41,895 bases of DNA from Candidatus Cloacimonadota bacterium (GCA_021735645.1 JAIPGP010000024.1:1-41895); one strand, 5' to 3'. Counted from the stretch's first letter, positions 3,056-39,685 are shown. Translations and numbers: made by a program. Notes: generated from the sequence alone by a model not told the origin.

Positions 3056-4330
3056 ATGGAGGCTGTATTGGAAAGACATGATCTCAGTATACTTTTTGTA
3101 GAAGATGATGAATTAATGCGTAATACAATCAGTAAAGTACTTGAGAAAAATGCTCAGGAAGTATATCAGGCGTCAAACGGTTCTGAGGGACTTGCCATGT
3201 TTTTGGAAAAGCAGCCTGACATGATAATCACCGATATCATGATGCCGGAGATGAACGGACTGGAGATGATCCAGGAGATACGTCGTCACAGCCGGAGTGT
3301 GAAGATAGTGGTTGTTTCTGCTTATAGTGAGAAGGAGAATTTTTTAAAATCGATAGCCCTGGGTGTAAACAATTTTTTAATCAAGCCGATATCTTATAAG
3401 GATTTACTAAACATCTTAGAAGAGCTGGCAAACATAATCTGTCTTGAGAAGAGTGTGGAAGCTGAGCGTCACCTCAAAATGCTTGCCCAGGAGAATTTGA
3501 AGCAAGCCCATGCGGAACTTGAGTCCCGAGTAAAGGAACGCACGCGGGAGCTGGCAGTAGCTAATACGCAATTAATAGAATTTCAGGAGACTTTGCAGGA
3601 TAAGATAGAAAGAAGTGTAGCGGAGATACGGATGAAAGATCACATAATGATGCTGCAGAGCCGCCAGGCAGTGATGGGGGAGATGATAGGTCATATAGCA
3701 CATCAGTGGCGTCAGCCTTTGAATACTATAGGATTATTAACTCAGTCGCTGCTGTTTTCCTACCGAAAAGAGACATTGACAGAAGAACTTTTGGCAGAGC
3801 GGGTAGATAAGATAATGTCTGTTCTGGAACACATGTCAGTCACGGTTGATGATTTTCGTGATTTCTTTAATCCCAATCGGGAGAAGCTTACTTTCAGTCT
3901 GGAATCGGTAGTGAAGAAGACGCTTTCGTTTGTGGAGAGTTCGTTTCAGAAGCATAAGATAGTTTTGACTTTTGAGAAAGAGGAAGATTGTCAGATATAT
4001 GGTTATGAAAACGAATATTCGCAGGTATTGATGAATTTATTGATCAATGCGAAGGATGCGTTAGTGGAGAACCGGACAGAAGATCGCCAGATTTGTATAA
4101 GAGTAAGTAGAAGAATGGGTAAAAGCTATCTGGAGGTGGAGGATAATGCTGGAGGAATAGCAGAGAGTATCAGGAGTCAGATGTTTGAGCCTTATTTTAC
4201 GACAAAATCAGAGCAAAACGGAACCGGACTGGGATTATATATATGTAAAACGATAGTGGAGCGCAATATGTCTGGTTATATAGATGTAAGTAATAATGGT
4301 ACAGGAGCCGTTTTTACAATCGTGATCTGA
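3056..4330 (+). CDS. Receiver-domain histidine kinase (REC - coiled coil - HisKA - HATPase)
   Basis: A 424-residue cytoplasmic protein. The N-terminal receiver (about 8-125) has the acidic pair EDD near 16-18, phosphoacceptor Asp60 (MIITDIMMPEMNG) and the conserved Lys in FLIKPIS. A coiled coil (about 135-195) leads to a histidine kinase core whose H-box is GHIAHQWRQPLNTI, with likely phosphorylated His216. The ATPase domain has the N-box NLLINAKDAL, DNAGGI and GTGLGLYICK. There is no transmembrane segment, so it probably responds to phosphorylation at its own receiver. It stands two bases before a single-domain receiver gene and heads a c-di-GMP signalling cassette. No strong ribosome binding site precedes the ATG. 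Confidence 0.9.
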   Translation: MEAVLERHDLSILFVEDDELMRNTISKVLEKNAQEVYQASNGSEGLAMFLEKQPDMIITDIMMPEMNGLEMIQEIRRHSRSVKIVVVSAYSEKENFLKSIALGVNNFLIKPISYKDLLNILEELANIICLEKSVEAERHLKMLAQENLKQAHAELESRVKERTRELAVANTQLIEFQETLQDKIERSVAEIRMKDHIMMLQSRQAVMGEMIGHIAHQWRQPLNTIGLLTQSLLFSYRKETLTEELLAERVDKIMSVLEHMSVTVDDFRDFFNPNREKLTFSLESVVKKTLSFVESSFQKHKIVLTFEKEEDCQIYGYENEYSQVLMNLLINAKDALVENRTEDRQICIRVSRRMGKSYLEVEDNAGGIAESIRSQMFEPYFTTKSEQNGTGLGLYICKTIVERNMSGYIDVSNNGTGAVFTIVI

Positions 4331-30826: not shown

Positions 30827-31558
30827 ATGAGAAAAAATTTGTTTATTTTATTTACACTATTGTCAACTCTGTTGCTTTTCGCTGATCTGGAATTTACTCC
30901 AGGCTATAATTATAACCTGGTTGGTCCTGCTTATAATGGATCAACTGTTGAATTTGTTTCCGATACGCTTCATGTAACCAATACAGGCAGCACCGAGGAA
31001 TTTACAATTCACATGGAAACCAGTGAAATACCTGCGGGCTGGCAAATTATGTGGTGTCATGATTATGAAGATGCGTTATGTCATTTCCCCATTTTTCCCT
31101 GGAGTTTTGATTTTGTATCGGGGACAGAGATATTGATTGATATCTCAGTAATTTACAACAGCAGTCCGGGAAGTGCAGACATCACCTTATTCTGGTCTGC
31201 AGCAGGAATTGATAATATTCGACAGGATTTCACCTTCAGGACAGAGGATTTTGTAGATGTTTATGATAATGAGATCATTCCAGCAGCAGTTCTGGGTCAC
31301 AACTATCCCAATCCCTTTAATCCTGAAACCACAATAACCTATAATCTTAGCAGCGGTACTACAGCAGAATTGAGTATTTATAATCTCAAAGGCGAGCTGG
31401 TGAGAAGTTTCGGGAAATCAAGACAGGAAGCGGGAGAGCACTACATCATTTGGGATGGCAAAGATAATCAGAATCATGATTTGAGCAGTGGAATGTATTT
31501 GTACAAATTAAATGTGGCTCAAGATTCATATACGCGTAAAATGATTTTAATAAAATAG
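30827..31558 (+). CDS. Exported beta-sandwich protein with C-terminal sorting tail, first in the selenoprotein operon
   Basis: A 243-residue protein with a signal peptide (MRKNLFILFTLLSTLLLFA), a beta-rich middle (about 20-140) and a C-terminal sorting tail from NYPNPFNPETTITYNL to KMILIK. The middle contains a Cys pair, WCHDYEDALCHF, spaced C-x7-C near residues 87-95, which could form a disulphide. The middle domain family is not recognised. The ribosome binding site of the first selenoprotein gene overlaps this stop codon, so the two are translated from one mRNA. It may be a partner or substrate of the thioredoxin-like domain; that is inference. Confidence 0.75.
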   Translation: MRKNLFILFTLLSTLLLFADLEFTPGYNYNLVGPAYNGSTVEFVSDTLHVTNTGSTEEFTIHMETSEIPAGWQIMWCHDYEDALCHFPIFPWSFDFVSGTEILIDISVIYNSSPGSADITLFWSAAGIDNIRQDFTFRTEDFVDVYDNEIIPAAVLGHNYPNPFNPETTITYNLSSGTTAELSIYNLKGELVRSFGKSRQEAGEHYIIWDGKDNQNHDLSSGMYLYKLNVAQDSYTRKMILIK

Positions 31559-31566
31559 GAGGGTAC

Positions 31567-32829
31567 GTGAGAAAATTATTCATTTCATTATTTTTTATGA
31601 GCATTTTAGTTTTATCAGCAAGTCAGTATTGGGTTGTAGGTGAGGTATTCACTCAAACCTGGTGAGGTTATTGTCCATCAGCCCGGGCTGGGCTGGCAGA
31701 TCTGGAAGAATACCCTGAAGCCCCATATTTTATTCCTCTCATCTGGCAGGGGGACGGTTCTTATCCCAGTCCTCATTATACACAGAGAGGCAATATCTAC
31801 GGAGTAGGTGGAATACCTCATTCACAATGGGGTGGCACTTATGAAATAGTCGGTGGAGGCGGAAGCACGATGTTTTCACAATACCGTTCTCGCTATAATG
31901 CCATGGTGAGCTGGGAAAGTCCTCTGGAAATCGAAGTTATCCTTGATCCCGGTTACGAAACTGCAACAGCAGAAATCACAGTTACCGGGGATATCAGCAC
32001 AACAAATAATAAAGTGATCTTTATTGTAACCAATCATCAGACTAATGATTACTTTTGTTCAGTAGTCACTTATGATGAATATACTTTTGATCTTACAGAA
32101 ATTGGCAGCACCGGAACTTTTGTGCATACATTAAACACCTCCGGATATAATATAGATAATCTCACTGTCAATGTACTGGTGCAGACATTATCGCCCAATT
32201 ACCAGATTTTACAGGCCGGGCGTGTGATAGTATCTGAAGCCGTAGTTCCGCTGCATGTGGAATCTATAGATTTTGATCCTGTTATGGTTGGCGAAACAGC
32301 TTCTCAAACCATTCAGTTATTCAATTATGGCAATACAGAACTAACCGGGATGATCTTTCCACCCGTAGGATTCACTGCCCCGGCAGATTATAATGTAGCA
32401 GCTCACTCCATAGGAGAGGTGGAAATCACTTTTGCACCTCAACAGGCGGGTGAATATTCTGATATTATGATAGTTACCACTTCGCTGGTGGATTACCCTA
32501 CTTTCTTTATAGACGTAACCGGCGAGGGATTACCTTCTAATGCTGTGATATCTGATGAAGTTTCTCCTCTAATAGAGATAACCGGTAATTATCCGAATCC
32601 TTTTAATCCGGTTACTACTCTAAGATTCAACCTGCTGCAGGATGAATCAGTGAGCCTGATAATTTACAATATCCGCGGAGAGGAAGTTGCTGTTCTGCAA
32701 GATGGCTGGTTATCCGCAGGTGAGCATCAGATATTCTGGCAGGCAGAAGGTCTGGCTGGCGGTGTTTATCTGGCAAAACTGAAAGCTGGTGTTCATACTT
32801 CTGAACACAAGATGATATTATTAAAATAG
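31567..32829 (+). CDS. Exported Omp28-like thioredoxin-fold selenoprotein, U-G-Y-C active site (in-frame TGA at 31663-31665)
   Basis: Read through the TGA this is a 420-residue protein. A GTG start after AGGAGGG gives the signal peptide MRKLFISLFFMSILVLSAS. Then comes strand QYWVVGEVFT and TW-U33-GYCPSAR, a CxxC-type redox motif with selenocysteine first. FIPLIWQGD and a cis-Pro-like loop GGIPHSQWGG complete a thioredoxin-like fold. An Omp28-like beta domain (about 115-235) and an ASH/HYDIN-like domain (about 240-330) follow. The sorting tail runs from NYPNPFNP to KMILLK. The frame is open on both sides of the TGA, and TGA is a normal stop elsewhere in the window. A hairpin with a GGGCT loop follows the TGA. 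It should act as a thiol/disulphide oxidoreductase outside the cytoplasm. Without recoding, only the part from 31870 would be read. Confidence 0.85.
31663..31695 (+). promoter_or_regulatory. UGA selenocysteine codon and bacterial SECIS-like hairpin, first gene
   Basis: TGA at 31663-31665 is followed by CAGCCC (31679-31684), loop GGGCT (31685-31689) and GGGCTG (31690-31695). The loop begins 20 bases after the UGA and starts with GG, as bacterial SECIS loops bound by SelB do. Pairing is exact over six base pairs; recognition is inferred. Confidence 0.7.
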
Positions 32830-32845
32830 TCTGAAAGGAGTTAAA

Positions 32846-35017
32846 ATGAAGAAACAATTATTGATTGTGCTTATCCTTGGTTTATTTGCCCTGCTTTCTG
32901 CTACGCAGATCTGGGTAGTGGGTGAAGTTTTCACCCAGACATGGTGAGGTTACTGCCCATCAGCCCGGCAAGGTTTGCTGGATGTGGAAAATGACCCAGA
33001 TGCAGAATTTTATATTCCCTTGATCTGGCAGGGTGACGGCGCCTGGCCCAGTCCTGGGTATAGTACCCGCGGTACATTGTATGGCGTAGGTGGAATTCCT
33101 CATGCCCAATGGGGCGGATTTCAGGAAATTGTGGGTGGAGGCGGATCCACAATGTATAATTCTTACATCAATATGTATAATCAGTTAGTTGATGATGTAA
33201 GTCCGGTAGAAATGCTGGTAGGTCTTGGGTTTGATAATAATGGTGACCTCCTGGTTCAGGCAAATGTAGAATTAACTGGAGATATCACTACTACTAATAA
33301 TAAAATAGTATATATAATTAAATGGCATCAGAATGCAGAATATTTTTGCACTGTGGTTGGTTATGCTAATGAAGATTTTAGTCTTACTTCTACGGGTGAA
33401 ACCGGCACATACAGTTACAGCTTTCCAATGAATGCTGCCTGGGAAATAGAAGACCTCACCGCTGTAGCAATGGTACAGACCTACAGTGGAAATCATGCTA
33501 TTCTGCAGGCTGGTCAAGCTCAGCTTACAGGACTGGTTGCCGCTATCGGCAGCAATGTTCAATCCGGACCTCCTTCACTGGCTGTAGATTTCACCAGCGT
33601 ATCATATCCTCTTACAGGGATTGAGTCCTGGGAATGGGATGTAGATGGTGATGGAGTTTATGATTATACGGAAGAAAATCCAACTCATATGTATGATACT
33701 CCGGGAAGCTACGATGTTACCCTGCGGATCGGCATGGAGGGCGAATATAATGAAGTAACCATTCCTGGTTACATCACTGTCACGGAAGATGCTGTTGCTG
33801 AAGGTGTAGTTTCTGGTGTCTGGCACAGTGACCTTGGTCCTTATCTGGCTACCGGTGATCTACTGGTGAAGCCTGGTAACCTGCTGGTAATCGAACCTGG
33901 CACAGAGATTATCCTGGAAGATGGAGCTGAATTTCTGGTGAAAGGGCAATTGATTGCCGATGCCCGTGATTCGGAGATGATAGTTTTTCGCACTGAAAGC
34001 GAATGGACTGGGATTCATATCAAAGATTCTATGGAAGAAAATATTATTGCCTGGTGTGAAGTCACCGGAGCTACTGCGTCTGCTATATACATAGAGAACT
34101 CGGATTGTACTATTATGGATAATCTGATTCATCACAATTCCGGCTCAGCTTTGGGGGCTGCCATTGAGCTACTGGACGTTATGGACATTGAGATAGCAGG
34201 AAACCTGATTGCTAATAATACCAGCTCGGGTCTTACTGGCGGTATTTCCATGACCAATTGTTTCCCCAGTATTCATAATAATGTGGTAGTCAATAACACT
34301 GCTGGTACTGCAGGAGCTTTTAGTATTAAGCAGAATTCAGCACCCGTTATTGTAAATAACACAATAGCAAACAATGTTGGTGTGAACGGAGCTTTCCTGC
34401 TCTTTAATTCCCAGCCAACACTCGTAAACTGCATTGTTCAGTCTGAAGGTAATGTATTTGCAGCTATTGCCAGTACACCAACAGTGATGTATTCCTGTCT
34501 CTCTGGCGGATATACAGGAGAGGGTAATATCGATGTAGATCCCATGTTCATAGCCCCTTCCGAAGGATATGGCTCAGAATTTGACGGCATGACTGCCAAC
34601 TGGCAGCTTCTTGCCGGTTCAGAATGCATTGATGCCGGTGATCCTAATGTGATTTATAATGACCTGGATGATACCAGAAATGATATGGGTGCTTTCGGCT
34701 GGAATGGCTTCCCCGATTATGGCTTAACTGATACTGACCCGGAAACTATTGTGCCGGCTCCATTAGAAATCATTGCCTATCCTAATCCTTTTAATCCCAG
34801 CACAAACCTGAGTTTTAATTTATCTGAGGCAGCAAATGTCAGTTTGGAAGTTTATAATATCAAGGGTCAAATGATAGAAACTCTGGCAGATAGACACTTT
34901 GATGCCGGTAATCATCAAATCACCTGGAATGCTGATAATTTTGCTTCCGGTGTATATTTCCTGAAACTCAGTAGTGGTTCTGAAAACAGGTTCCAGAAGC
35001 TAATTCTAATGAAATAA
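32846..35017 (+). CDS. Exported multidomain selenoprotein, U-G-Y-C active site (in-frame TGA at 32945-32947), PKD and beta-helix
   Basis: A 723-residue protein when the TGA is read as selenocysteine. It starts at ATG after AAAGGAG: signal peptide MKKQLLIVLILGLFALLSA, then WVVGEVFTQTW-U34-GYCPSAR, FYIPLIWQGDG and GGIPHAQWGG (thioredoxin-like domain, about 20-125). An Omp28-like beta domain (about 125-230) and a PKD domain (about 235-315, WEWDVDGDGVYDYTEENPTH) follow. A right-handed beta-helix region comes next (about 330-580, repeated N-rich turns such as SGNLIANNTSSG-like segments), then the sorting tail (YPNPFNPSTNLSFNLS to KLILMK). It lies 16 bases after the first selenoprotein gene. A TTG just after the hairpin (32975) would be a false start lacking signal peptide and active site. 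It is a close tandem duplicate of the next gene. Confidence 0.87.
32945..32981 (+). promoter_or_regulatory. UGA selenocysteine codon and bacterial SECIS-like hairpin, second gene
   Basis: TGA at 32945-32947 is followed by CCGGCAA (32965-32971), loop GGT (32972-32974) and TTGCTGG (32975-32981), seven pairs including one G-U. The GGU loop lies 25 bases after the UGA, within the distance usual for bacterial SECIS elements. Confidence 0.75.
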
Positions 35018-35066
35018 TATAATAGAAAACATCTGGAGCAATTAATCAGCTTCTGATGTGATAGTT

Positions 35067-35157
35067 ATCCCCAATAGGATTATTCGTAAGTATAATCTTG
35101 ACAGCTTTGTTTTCTATATAAAAGTTGTCAGGTGAATAACCTGTTGGGGATTTTTTT
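35067..35157 (+). terminator. Large compound hairpin ending in a T-run, between second and third selenoprotein genes
   Basis: ATCCCCAA (35067-35074) pairs with TTGGGGAT (35144-35151), extended by TAGG/CCTG and TTATTC/GAATAA. An inner hairpin is formed by TGACA-GCTTT with AAAAG-TTGTCA. Seven T residues follow. It works as a terminator on sequence grounds; the unusual length (about 85 bases with an inner stem) makes a regulated terminator possible. Confidence 0.75.
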
Positions 35158-35219
35158 ATCTGCTAATTACAAATAAGGTTATTGCTTGTATTTCATTATT
35201 ATTTGTTGAGGAGAACGAA

Positions 35220-37397
35220 ATGATGTTAAAAAAACTTTTTGCCTTACTTCTATTACTAAGTTCAATGATCCGGTTGTCTGCTACCCAGATTTCTGTTGTA
35301 GGCGAAGTATTTACTGCCACTTCCTGACCATACTGCCCATCAGCTCGGCAAGGTTTGCTGGATTTAGATGAAAATTCTGAAGCCGAATATTTTATACCCT
35401 TGATCTGGCAGGGTGATAGTCCAGGGATTAGTCCCGGATATAATCCCCGAGGGTCAATGTATGGACTTAATGGCATCCCACATTCGCAGTGGAATGGTTA
35501 TGAACAGATCATTGGAGGAAATACTTCCACCATGTATCCCTATTATCTGGATTTGTATAATCAATTAGTAGAAGAAGATAGTCCTTTGGAACTCACGGTT
35601 GGATTAGGAGTTGATGAGGTCGGGAATCTGGAAATTAATGCAGATGTGCTGCTTACAGAGAATATCACAACCGCAAACAACAAGATTGTTTACATCATTA
35701 AATGGCATCAGGACAATGATTATTTCTGCTCAGTAGTCCAATATGATTACGAGGATTTTTATTTGACGACTATTGGCGAAACTGGCAGTTTTAGTCATTG
35801 TTTTACCTGGAATGAAGTCTGGGAAGTTCAAGATATACAGGCAGTCGTACTCATTCAGACTTATAATAGCGACTATCGGATATTGCAGGCTGCTCAATCT
35901 GAGTTTAATGGTCTGCTATCCATTATAAGCAGTAATGTACAAACCGGACCTCCCTCTCTGGCAGTTAATTTCACCAGCAGTTCATATCCGGCAAACGGAA
36001 TCCAGACCTGGGAGTGGGATGTTGATGGAGATGGAGTTTATGATTATACTGCTGAGAACCCCACTCATGTATATGATACACCAGGGAGTTATAATGTTAC
36101 TCTTCGCGTCGGAATGAATGGAGAATTCAATGAAGTTACAATGCCCGGATATGTAACTGTTACTGAAGATGCAATAGCCGAAGGAAGTGTTTCCGGCTGC
36201 TGGCATAGCGAGTTGAGTCCTTATCTGGCAACGGGTGATCTGCTGGTTGACCAGGGAAGTGTACTTGAAATAGAACCCGGAACAGTAATTATATTGGAAA
36301 ACGGGGCGGAATTACTGATAAAAGGTCAATTAATCGCAGATGCTCGCGATTCTGAGATGATTGTTTTCCGCACAGAAAGTGACTGGGCTGGGGTGCATAT
36401 CATGGATTCCAGCGAGGAAAATATCATTGCCTGGTGCGAGATTACAGGTGCTACTGAATCCGCAATCTATCTTGATAATTCTGTTTGTGATATTATTAAT
36501 AATCTCATCCACCATAATTCCAGTAGTGCTCTGGGTGCTGCAATAGAGCTTCTTGATGTTGCTGATATCCTGATTTCCGGTAATCTTATCGCTAATAATA
36601 CCAGTTCAGGAATGACAGCCGGAATTTGCATGACGAACTCTTATCCATTTGTTAATAATAATATTGTTGTTAATAATACTTCAGCAAATGCAGGTGCCTT
36701 CAGCATTAAACAAAATTCCGCTCCTGTGCTCTCTAATAACACCATAGCCGGTAACAGTGCAGTTAATGGGACATTTTTTCTCTTTAATTCACAACTTTCC
36801 CTGAATAATTGTATAGTTTGCACCAGTGGAGATGTGTTTTATAATATTGCCAGTTCTGCCACTGTCATGTATTCCTGCCTGCCTGGTGGATATACAGGAG
36901 AGGGTAATATTGATGCAGACCCCATGTTCATAAATCCTTCCGAAGGTGATGGCTCAGAATTTGATGGCATGACCGCCAACTGGCAGTTTCTTGCTGGCTC
37001 CCCCTGCATTGATGCTGGAAATCCTGATCTGGACTATAATGACCTGGATGAATCCAGAAATGACATGGGTGCTTTCGGCTGGTATGGCTTCCCCGATTAT
37101 GGCTTAACTGATACCGACCCGGAAAACATTGTACCCGTAAAACTGGATATCAAGGCTTATCCAAATCCCTTCAATCCCAGCACAAACCTGAGCTTTAATT
37201 TATCTGAAGCAGAAAATGGTAGTTTAGAAGTGTATAATATCAAGGGTCAATTGATTGAAACCCTTGCAGATAGACACTTCGATGCCGGTAATCATCAAAT
37301 TATCTGGAATGCTGAAAAATTTGCTTCTGGTGTATATTTCGTTATGTTTAATAATGGCTCTGGAAAATTTTTCCAGAAAATAGTCCTGATGAAATAG
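35220..37397 (+). CDS. Exported multidomain selenoprotein, U-P-Y-C active site (in-frame TGA at 35325-35327), PKD and beta-helix
   Basis: A 725-residue protein read through the TGA. ATG follows GAGGAG; signal peptide MMLKKLFALLLLLSSMIRLS, then ISVVGEVFTATS-U36-PYCPSAR. U-P-Y-C is the glutaredoxin/CPYC pattern with selenocysteine first. FIPLIWQGD and NGIPHSQWNG follow, so the thioredoxin-like fold is kept. Omp28-like beta domain, PKD (WEWDVDGDGVYDYTAENPTH), beta-helix and sorting tail (YPNPFNPSTNLSFNLS to KIVLMK) are arranged exactly as in the preceding gene, its evident duplicate. It is separated from that gene by a strong terminator, so it probably has its own promoter. An apparent TTG start at 35355 is an artefact of stopping at the TGA. 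Confidence 0.87.
35325..35361 (+). promoter_or_regulatory. UGA selenocysteine codon and bacterial SECIS-like hairpin, third gene
   Basis: TGA at 35325-35327 is followed by CGGCAA (35346-35351), loop GGT (35352-35354) and TTGCTG (35355-35360), with a T-G wobble below. The hairpin is identical to that of the second gene although the bases directly after the UGA differ (CCA instead of GGT). Confidence 0.75.
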
Positions 37398-37424
37398 AAA
37401 AAGAATTAAATATGGATACGAAGC

Positions 37425-37449
37425 CGGGGACTGAAAAGTCCCCGTTTTT
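37425..37449 (+). terminator. Rho-independent terminator between third and fourth selenoprotein genes
   Basis: CGGGGACT (37425-37432) pairs with AGTCCCCG (37437-37444) around GAAA, followed by TTTTT. It ends only 14 bases before the next ATG, so it may act as an attenuator for the fourth gene, which has no room for a promoter after it. Confidence 0.8.
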
Positions 37450-37462
37450 ATATGGAGGTTTG

Positions 37463-39685
37463 ATGAAGTATATAAAATTGACACTTATAGCGATGCTGCT
37501 ATTCACCAGCATGCTGCTTACGGCTGCTGTCCGGCAGGTAACTGGAGAAGTATATTCTGAAATCTGCACTGGCTGAGGCGGGGATTACAGTTTGGCGCGT
37601 GACGCCTTAATCCAGCTTGCCTTAGAGCATGATGACCTGATTCCGCTTATCTGGCAGATGAGCGATCCCGCTTCTCCTGGTGCAGATGACCGCTTTCAGT
37701 TCTATGGTGGAGAAACATTTCCCACTGGTATTTTCGGAGGCAATTTGTCCTATATAGGTGAAGATGAAGCTGTTACGCAATATGCTGATTTTTATGATCA
37801 GCTTACTGGCATGGAAACGCCCTGGGACATCGATCTGCATTTTGGTTTTGACACCGATAATAATTACCGTATCACAGCGGATATTTCTCTGGAGGACTCA
37901 GTTGCTACAGATAGCATAAATGTTATATTTGCTCTCACCCAGCATGATCTGAGCAATTATTCTTCTCTGGTACTTAATTCCTTCAATGATACGCTTTCGA
38001 TCTCAGAATCCGGTGATAGCATCAGTTTGCAGAAGCTTTTCCCTGATAGTGGATATTATGAACTCACTTCGCTCAGAGCTGTGGTGATCGTTCAGGATAT
38101 GCGAACCAGAGAAATTCTGCAGTCTGCTCAAACCGGGATAACTCAGCTAATACCGGAAGTGCTGGTGAATATTAATTCCGGTCCTGCCAGTCTGGGAGTA
38201 TATTTCCAGAATGCTTCCTTCCCTGTAGAAAATATCACAATGTGGCAATGGGATTTCCAGAATGACGGTATCATAGATTCCAATGAAGAAAATCCTTACT
38301 GGGTATTTGAGCAGCCGGGTGTATATGATGTGAAGCTGATGATCTCAGATGGTGAGAGCCGGGCAGAGAAGCTCTTTACTGAACTTATTACTGTGTTGGA
38401 TACTGACGCTGTGGAAGGCACTGTATTGGGCGTCTGGAGTCCGCAATTTAATCCTTATCACATCGTGAATGACATTTCTATTCCCTATTATGGCGAATTA
38501 GTTATAGAACCGGGGACAGAAATAGTAGTTGATTACAATAAAAAGATCAATGTCTATGGAAGAATCGATATTGCCGGAAGCGCAGAAGAGCCGGTGATCC
38601 TCACTTCCGATTCTACCTGGAAAGGAATCAAGCTGCTTAATTCACTCCTTGATAATCGAATCGAATATGCTCATATCACAAATACGAATCTGAGTGCCGT
38701 AAATGCCAGTTATGCTTCAATAGAGATTCTCAATTCTGTTTTTTATGGCAATGTGAGCGGCTCTCTGGGTGCTGCAATAAATCTTCTGGGCTGCGAAGAT
38801 GTTCTTATTCATGGCAATATGATCATCAATAATTCCTCCAGCATGACCGGTGGAATAGCTCTAAGGTCTTCCTACCCGATTATCAGTAATAATATCATCG
38901 CCAATAATGATGGCAGTATGGCGGGGGCACTGGTTATCCGCGAAAGCTCAGAACCTCTGATCATGAATAACATTATAGCCTATAATGATGCTCCTATCGC
39001 CGCCATATTTGTAGATGAATCCACGCCCGGATTTTTTAATAATATTCTCCTCGATCAGGAAGATGTTTTCCTGGGTGACCTGAGTGCTATGAGACTTGAT
39101 TATAATCTGAGTTCTCAGACCTTACCGGGTGACAGTAATTTTTATGCTGATCCGCTTTTTATGTCTCCTTCTCCTGTGAGTGGCACAGAATATGATGCTC
39201 TGCTGTCAGACTGGCATCTTCAGCCGGATTCACCAGCCATAGATGCCGGAGATCCTGCGGAGGAGTATAACGACCTGGAAGACAGCCAGAACCCGGGCTA
39301 TGCTCTGTATCCTGCTCTGGGTACTATCCGTAATGATCTGGGCTTTTATGGCGGACCTGGCATTATCCCTGAAGTTGTACCTGCTGATGAGGATGATATC
39401 GTTAGTCCGGCAGATATAACTTTGATTTCCTATCCCAATCCCTTTGTGCCAAGTAGCTCCCGCAATCAGTTAATTTTCTCTATCGAAGGAGCAGATGGGG
39501 GAGAGCTGAAAATATTCAACCTGAAAGGACAGAAGATCGCCAGTCTGGAAATAGCTCAAAGGTCAAACACAACTACCTGGAATGGAAAAAACAGACAGGG
39601 TAGATCAGTAAGCAGCGGCATCTATTTTGCCCGTTGGCAAAATGAAAACCGTACTGCCACCAAAAAACTGATCATCCTGGACTAA
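37463..39685 (+). CDS. Exported multidomain selenoprotein, reversed C-T-G-U active site (in-frame TGA at 37574-37576), PKD and beta-helix
   Basis: A 740-residue protein read through the TGA; the most divergent of the four. The ATG follows GGAGG; signal peptide MKYIKLTLIAMLLFTSMLLTAA, then VRQVTGEVYSEI-C35-TG-U38-GGDYSLARDA. Here selenocysteine is the second member of the redox pair, the opposite of its three neighbours. LIPLIWQMSDP and TFPTGIFGGN match the core strand and cis-Pro loop of the others. Omp28-like domain, PKD-like domain (MWQWDFQNDGIIDSNEENPY), beta-helix with N-rich turns and sorting tail (SYPNPFVPSSSRNQLIFSI to KKLIILD) follow. Reading through the TGA restores the signal peptide; a TTG at 37592 is a false start. 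Confidence 0.83.
37574..37606 (+). promoter_or_regulatory. UGA selenocysteine codon and SECIS-like hairpin, fourth gene
   Basis: TGA at 37574-37576 is followed by GGCG (37594-37597), loop CGTGA (37598-37602) and CGCC (37603-37606). The loop begins 22 bases after the UGA and contains GU. The stem is only four G-C pairs and the loop differs from the GG-starting loops of the other three, so this is the weakest element. Confidence 0.5.

Follow-up and report, generated by a model that had tools for sequence, protein, structure and literature searches.

What does a TGA codon signify when it interrupts an otherwise open reading frame, a stop or an amino acid? The question is raised by four adjacent genes on the plus strand (positions 31567-39685) of a stretch of 41 895 nucleotides, the whole of which is referred to here as the window. 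The host genome (3.77 Mb in 151 contigs) belongs to the Cloacimonadota and is close to 'Candidatus Stygibacter frigidus'. The original prediction, made from the window alone, described four adjacent genes with one in-frame TGA each. The data outlined below point, with a probability of around 95%, to four selenoprotein genes (W1-W4) in which UGA would specify selenocysteine (Sec, U) within a thioredoxin-like domain.

Four reading frames with a single in-frame TGA

When TGA is translated as a residue, four continuous reading frames do span this region, and each contains exactly one in-frame stop codon, always TGA and always near the N-terminus. The first gene, W1 (31567-32829), has a GTG start and encodes 420 amino acids, comprising a signal peptide, a thioredoxin-like domain with a UxxC motif (TWUGYC), an Omp28-like beta domain, an Ig-like domain, and a C-terminal sorting domain of the type IX secretion system (T9SS; type A, approximately 32590-32817). 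Its putative Sec codon is codon 33 (31663-31665), in the context GEVFTQTW-U-GYCP. W2 (32846-35017; 723 amino acids) shares this context and motif at codon 34 (32945-32947) and has a signal peptide, an Omp28-like beta domain, a PKD domain (approximately 33584-33742), a beta-helix-like region, and a type IX sorting domain (approximately 34778-35005). W3, which starts at 35220 or 35223 and ends at 37397 (approximately 725 amino acids), is a diverged tandem paralogue of W2 with the UxxC motif TSUPYC; its TGA is codon 35 (35325-35327; GEVFTATS-U-PYCP), and it carries PKD (approximately 35952-36125), NosD/beta-helix (approximately 36402-36755), and type IX sorting (approximately 37158-37385) domains. 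The fourth gene, W4 (37463-39685; 740 amino acids), encodes a signal peptide followed by a thioredoxin-like domain of a different type, CxxU, in which the TGA at codon 38 (37574-37576; GEVYSEICTG-U-GGDYS) takes the second position of C-T-G-U; PKD (approximately 38228-38368), beta-helix (approximately 38657-39049), and type IX sorting (approximately 39431-39676) domains lie downstream. The expectation that every TGA falls within a redox motif was thus borne out, with a variant arrangement in W4. The N-terminal regions of the four proteins align throughout, and the downstream cis-Pro position that had also been predicted (GIPH or FPTG) is invariant, along with many other columns. Directly upstream of the array, a short protein (30827-31558, plus strand) has a type IX sorting domain and no redox motif. 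A fifth gene of the family is found elsewhere in the same genome (L022:1501-3768, contig G000:C100), is of the CxxU type (TCDSUGSDYSEAR), and also has a type IX sorting domain.

The arrangement of these genes is maintained in other genomes. The order of an FAD-dependent protein, the small T9SS protein, W1, W2, W4, and ornithine carbamoyltransferase is the same in two relatives (G001 and G015), where all the TGA codons are likewise present; relative to these, W3 is an extra copy in the window genome. Across nine comparisons, dN/dS downstream of the TGA ranged from 0.04 to 0.24 (0.11 for W3 against W2), and upstream of it from 0.13 to 0.38 where this could be computed. Purifying selection acts on both sides of the codon.

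TGA retains its ordinary meaning elsewhere in the window, as had been noted from the sequence: 31 genes end in TAA (19), TAG (7), or TGA (5), the last including those that finish at 4330, 4695, 10636, and 14785. The gene for SelD in this genome (L017:1486-2622) appears to encode a selenoprotein itself, with a TGA at its catalytic position (MKKISLTQYVKAAGU), and its own reading frame is closed by a TGA stop. Since a single gene carries the codon in both positions, two meanings of UGA coexist in this genome. A reassigned genetic code was ruled out on these grounds, by the five window genes and selD that terminate with TGA.

Selenocysteine, cysteine, and the decoding machinery across the order

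Homologues of the four N-terminal regions were searched for in 79 genomes of the order, and 120 sequences were taken and aligned with the four window genes. Among the resulting 124 sequences, the motif position is occupied by TGA in 62, by Cys in 60, and by Asp and Ser in one each, and neither TAA nor TAG was found there in any of the 124. Cysteine is therefore the residue in 60 of the 62 copies without TGA, which agrees with the replacement that would be expected at a Sec position. The TGA falls in the same column as in W1-W3 in 57 sequences and three residues later, as in W4, in the other five. Three placements of Sec are apparent in the family as a whole, namely UxxC, CxxU, and a CU pair, and the tree implies no fewer than 12 switches between Sec and Cys. 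One homologue of the W4 type, in G042, has the motif CSGC. The C-U pair (GCUG.D), which replaces UxxC, characterizes a short subfamily of mostly ~340 amino acids in ten genomes (L129-L136, L138, and L141). A homologue from the Neomarinimicrobiota (L065:4001-6406) has a UxxC motif (SWUPYC) with a dockerin-like C-terminus and no type IX sorting domain, so that the N-terminal module is shared while the rest of the protein is of another kind.

This conservation bears on the possibility that the TGA codons are true stops, and that the genes are pseudogenes or are translated by downstream reinitiation into proteins that have no signal peptide. In-frame starts are available for reinitiation, such as the TTG codons at 32975, 35355, and 37592. 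However, TGA is the one type of stop codon observed at the motif and is kept there across 31 genomes, and selection is evident on both sides of it. A reinitiated product would also be without the first redox residue as well as the signal peptide, and yet would keep a conserved sorting domain for export. We regard true termination as very unlikely. Pseudogenes and frameshifts, and with them the independent nonsense mutations that the original prediction had called implausible, were ruled out by the conservation of TGA in 62 copies together with the low dN/dS.

The host genome encodes the components that selenocysteine insertion would require. A search for the four sel genes, suggested as a check when the array was first described, identified full-length SelB (319 bits against a cut-off of 242), SelA (545 bits), SelD (358 bits), and a tRNA-Sec (58 bits against an Rfam cut-off of 47) that ARAGORN classifies as SeC with the anticodon TCA. 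On contig G000:C89 (L023:1057-2139 and from 2142 onward; L001:1503-1597), a Cys-type Omp28-like lipoprotein adjoins a TlpA-like thioredoxin, and the tRNA-Sec gene and a NapH-like ferredoxin protein are both within a few kb of this pair. Across the order, none of the 31 genomes with TGA copies lacks all three of tRNA-Sec, SelB, and SelA, and the UCA type of anticodon is present in all 27 of the TGA-bearing genomes that have a tRNA-Sec. In two fragmented metagenome-assembled genomes (MAGs) with TGA copies (G008 and G011), SelA was found and tRNA-Sec and SelB were not. A sister family of 22 genomes (f10) has Cys copies only, and tRNA-Sec, SelB, and SelA are all absent from it. The association of tRNA-Sec or SelB with TGA copies gives a Fisher p value of 9e-6, for genomes that are phylogenetically non-independent.

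An alternative to selenium is that UGA is read as Cys, or as another residue, by an unusual tRNA with a UCA anticodon. A tRNA-Cys of this kind, the selC* type, is known in other bacteria (PMC7609411), and Cys is indeed the residue that alternates with TGA at this position. None of the 31 tRNA-family matches in the window genome, however, has a UCA anticodon, and the sole tRNA that does is tRNA-Sec itself; it has a G before CCA, like the tRNA-Sec of relatives, and an ordinary tRNA-Cys with a GCA anticodon is present. SelA, SelB, and SelD are all encoded as well, and TGA elsewhere is an ordinary stop. Decoding by such a tRNA is consequently considered highly improbable, and decoding as selenocysteine is favored. 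The computational checks put forward with the original prediction all gave results in line with selenocysteine.

Downstream hairpins and an apparent change of Sec codon

It is expected that a bacterial SECIS element lies in the stretch just after the Sec codon. Most of the TGA codons in the family have a hairpin 3' of the codon, and candidates can be drawn on the plus strand for all four window genes. In W1, the SECIS-like hairpin is at 31679-31695 (CAGCCC-GGGCU-GGGCUG), with a p value of 0.03 against synonymous-codon shuffles and no significance against dinucleotide shuffles. Hairpins with an identical stem (CGGCAAG...UUGCUGG) are found in W2 (32965-32981) and W3 (35345-35361), and a candidate apical hairpin in W4 (GGCG-CGUGA-CGCC) is at 37594-37606; taken singly, none of these three is significant. 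For the TGA set as a whole, folding z scores from synonymous-codon shuffling show a dip that is confined to +6 to +48 nt, where an element would be expected, with a minimum of -1.65 at +12 to +42. When both groups draw on a single codon pool, z is -1.55 for the TGA set and -0.86 for the Cys-only family (p = 0.02), which is a modest excess. The presence of SECIS-like elements is supported, from these folding statistics, at the level of the family rather than for each window gene. The Rfam model SECIS_1 (RF00031) gave no match, and it gave none in control genomes either, so this result is uninformative. In the proposed mechanism, UGA in the N-terminal thioredoxin-like domain would be decoded by SelB and the UCA tRNA-Sec at the downstream hairpin, and we infer that selenium is inserted in this way.

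In an initial test, the Cys homologues of Sec-decoding genomes seemed to keep the hairpin as well as the TGA genes did, which at first sight spoke against a SECIS. Splitting the sequences by the anticodon of tRNA-Sec traces the signal to particular genomes. In eight relatives (G044, G045, G052, G053, G047, G042, G019, and G057, with tRNA-Sec loci L225-L232 in that order) the anticodon of tRNA-Sec is GCA instead of UCA. The genomes whose Cys homologues keep a strong hairpin are exactly the seven of these with aligned homologues, which is all but G057. The mean hairpin z is -2.86 for the 16 Cys-type copies in these genomes and -0.23 for the eight other Cys copies outside f10, although the anticodon groups for the hairpin and codon comparisons were defined after seeing the data, the relatives are MAGs, and the homologues are non-independent. 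The codon usage follows the same division. All 16 of the Cys-type homologues in the GCA genomes have TGC at the motif, and never TGT, while the other Cys codons of the same genes comprise nine TGC and 16 TGT (Fisher p = 3e-5, again for non-independent homologues).

These observations suggest that the Sec codon has probably switched within one family, such that in the GCA relatives UGC specifies Cys generally and Sec when it precedes a SECIS-like hairpin. Each side of the switch involves a single base, U34 to G34 in the anticodon (UCA to GCA) and TGA to TGC in the gene. Cys in the homologues is thus not simply a state without selenium, since eight relatives appear to read TGC as selenocysteine. 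The GCA tRNAs have G before CCA wherever the 3' end is fully aligned, as in the UCA tRNAs, and in these molecules the U73 discriminator of selC* tRNA-Cys (PMC7609411) was not found. One further relative (G046) has tRNA-Sec genes with both anticodons (L234 and L235) and two SelB genes (contigs C92 and C82), and may be an intermediate or may operate two parallel Sec codes. A scan for TGC followed by a hairpin around the sel genes of the GCA genomes gave implausible matches only.

Use of a sense codon for selenocysteine has precedent in Aeromonas salmonicida, where UGU has this role (Mukai et al. 2016, cited in PMC10778597 and PMC5330540). The GCA relatives likewise pair a tRNA-Sec that has a Cys anticodon with a Cys codon, here TGC with a hairpin at the Sec position, whereas the window genome itself uses UCA and UGA. 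A 'Cloacimonetes type' of tRNA-Sec, reported by Mukai et al. 2016, is also mentioned in the literature (PMC5330540). The apparent codon switch in the relatives was not found described, and Mukai et al. 2016 may cover these lineages.

The anticodon data also bear on whether UGA is suppressed by a near-cognate tRNA, such as tRNA-Trp, to give a low level of extended protein that does not contain selenium. Individual genes give a weak hairpin signal, and nothing specific was identified in favor of suppression. The homologous residue is Cys and not Trp, and the codon tracks the presence of tRNA-Sec and, in the relatives, its anticodon. Suppression of this kind therefore appears extremely unlikely as compared with the dedicated insertion of selenocysteine.

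Export, known relatives, and biological significance

The domain composition of these proteins provides the context in which the redox motifs would act. The C-terminal sorting domain (TIGR04183/PF18962) is above cut-off in all four window proteins, and Pfam and NCBIfam models identify PKD domains in W2-W4 and beta-helix/NosD domains in W3 and W4. SprA, of the type IX translocon, is encoded in the genome (449 bits summed over one frame of 2095 amino acids). The signal peptide and the type IX sorting domain lead to the prediction that the proteins are exported by the Sec pathway and then by the T9SS, and they would then either stay attached to the cell surface or be set free from it. An AlphaFold model of W2 residues 1-251 has a mean pLDDT of 90.7 and shows, after the signal peptide, a beta-alpha-beta-alpha-beta-beta-alpha fold followed by a beta-sandwich; the UxxC motif lies at the N-terminal end of the first helix. 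The best match among solved structures is HBP35 of Porphyromonas gingivalis (PDB 5Y1A; E = 7.7e-12, TM 0.64/0.52), and Omp28 (2R2C) was also matched, although the Pfam Omp28 model (PF11551) gives W2 an E-value of 0.05, which is under its cut-off.

Both HBP35 and the window proteins have a signal peptide, a thioredoxin-like domain, and a type IX C-terminal domain. HBP35 is surface-exposed, has a CxxC motif, and reduces insulin in a reaction that needs both active-site Cys residues (PMC2907840). It differs in having Cys without selenocysteine, in binding hemin, and in sequence, with only 17% identity. A redox function is proposed because the best solved match is a surface thioredoxin that has a type IX C-terminal domain: the UxxC pair of W1-W3 or the CxxU pair of W4 would reduce or exchange disulfides, or similar substrates, at the surface in a manner like that of HBP35. 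For both export and the redox reaction, these are the most likely interpretations. The Omp28 lipoprotein (PF11551, PDB 2R2C) resembles the beta domain that lies 3' of the thioredoxin-like domain, but the window proteins bear a type IX sorting domain and are not plain lipoproteins.

The original prediction knew of no described family of this type, and this needs to be qualified. An 'Omp28-related selenoprotein' (NF045500), equivalent to 'hypothetical protein GOS_C' and with a UxxC motif, is listed in a 2026 inventory of prokaryotic selenoproteins (PMC13188914). GOS_C itself was predicted in 2008, with a thioredoxin-like fold, from 74 marine Sec sequences and 312 Cys sequences (Zhang and Gladyshev; PMC2398784). 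NF045500 scores 67.7, 69.5, 70.7, and 20.7 bits against W1-W4, respectively, and so does not reach its curated cut-off of 200; the E-values are 1e-18 to 1e-19 for W1-W3, over most of the N-terminal region, and 2e-4 for W4, and all 40 of the relatives tested have E-values of 1e-3 or lower. As judged from these profile scores, the window proteins are homologous to NF045500 and outside the curated equivalog. The two groups have in common the thioredoxin-like fold and the Omp28-type domain, together with UxxC in W1-W3. The window proteins add PKD or beta-helix domains, T9SS sorting domains, organization in a tandem array, and CxxU (in W4), and their relatives add C-U. No pertinent publication emerged from a literature search on selenoproteins in combination with type IX secretion, and the type-IX-sorted array with PKD and beta-helix domains was not found described. 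What is new is the multidomain, type-IX-sorted array and the three placements of selenocysteine, within a protein family that was already predicted to hold selenoproteins.

Gene calling with the standard code ends the first reading frame at the TGA and restarts the remainder downstream, which leads to loss of the export signal and of the catalytic residue. A conserved, putative surface redox system of the Cloacimonadota thus stays hidden under this type of annotation. If the interpretation is true, selenocysteine would function outside the cell on multidomain proteins sorted by the type IX system, in the arrangements UxxC, CxxU, and CU. The family offers a natural comparison of UGA-encoded Sec, apparent UGC-encoded Sec, and plain Cys in related bacteria, which allows the switching of Sec codons to be tested.
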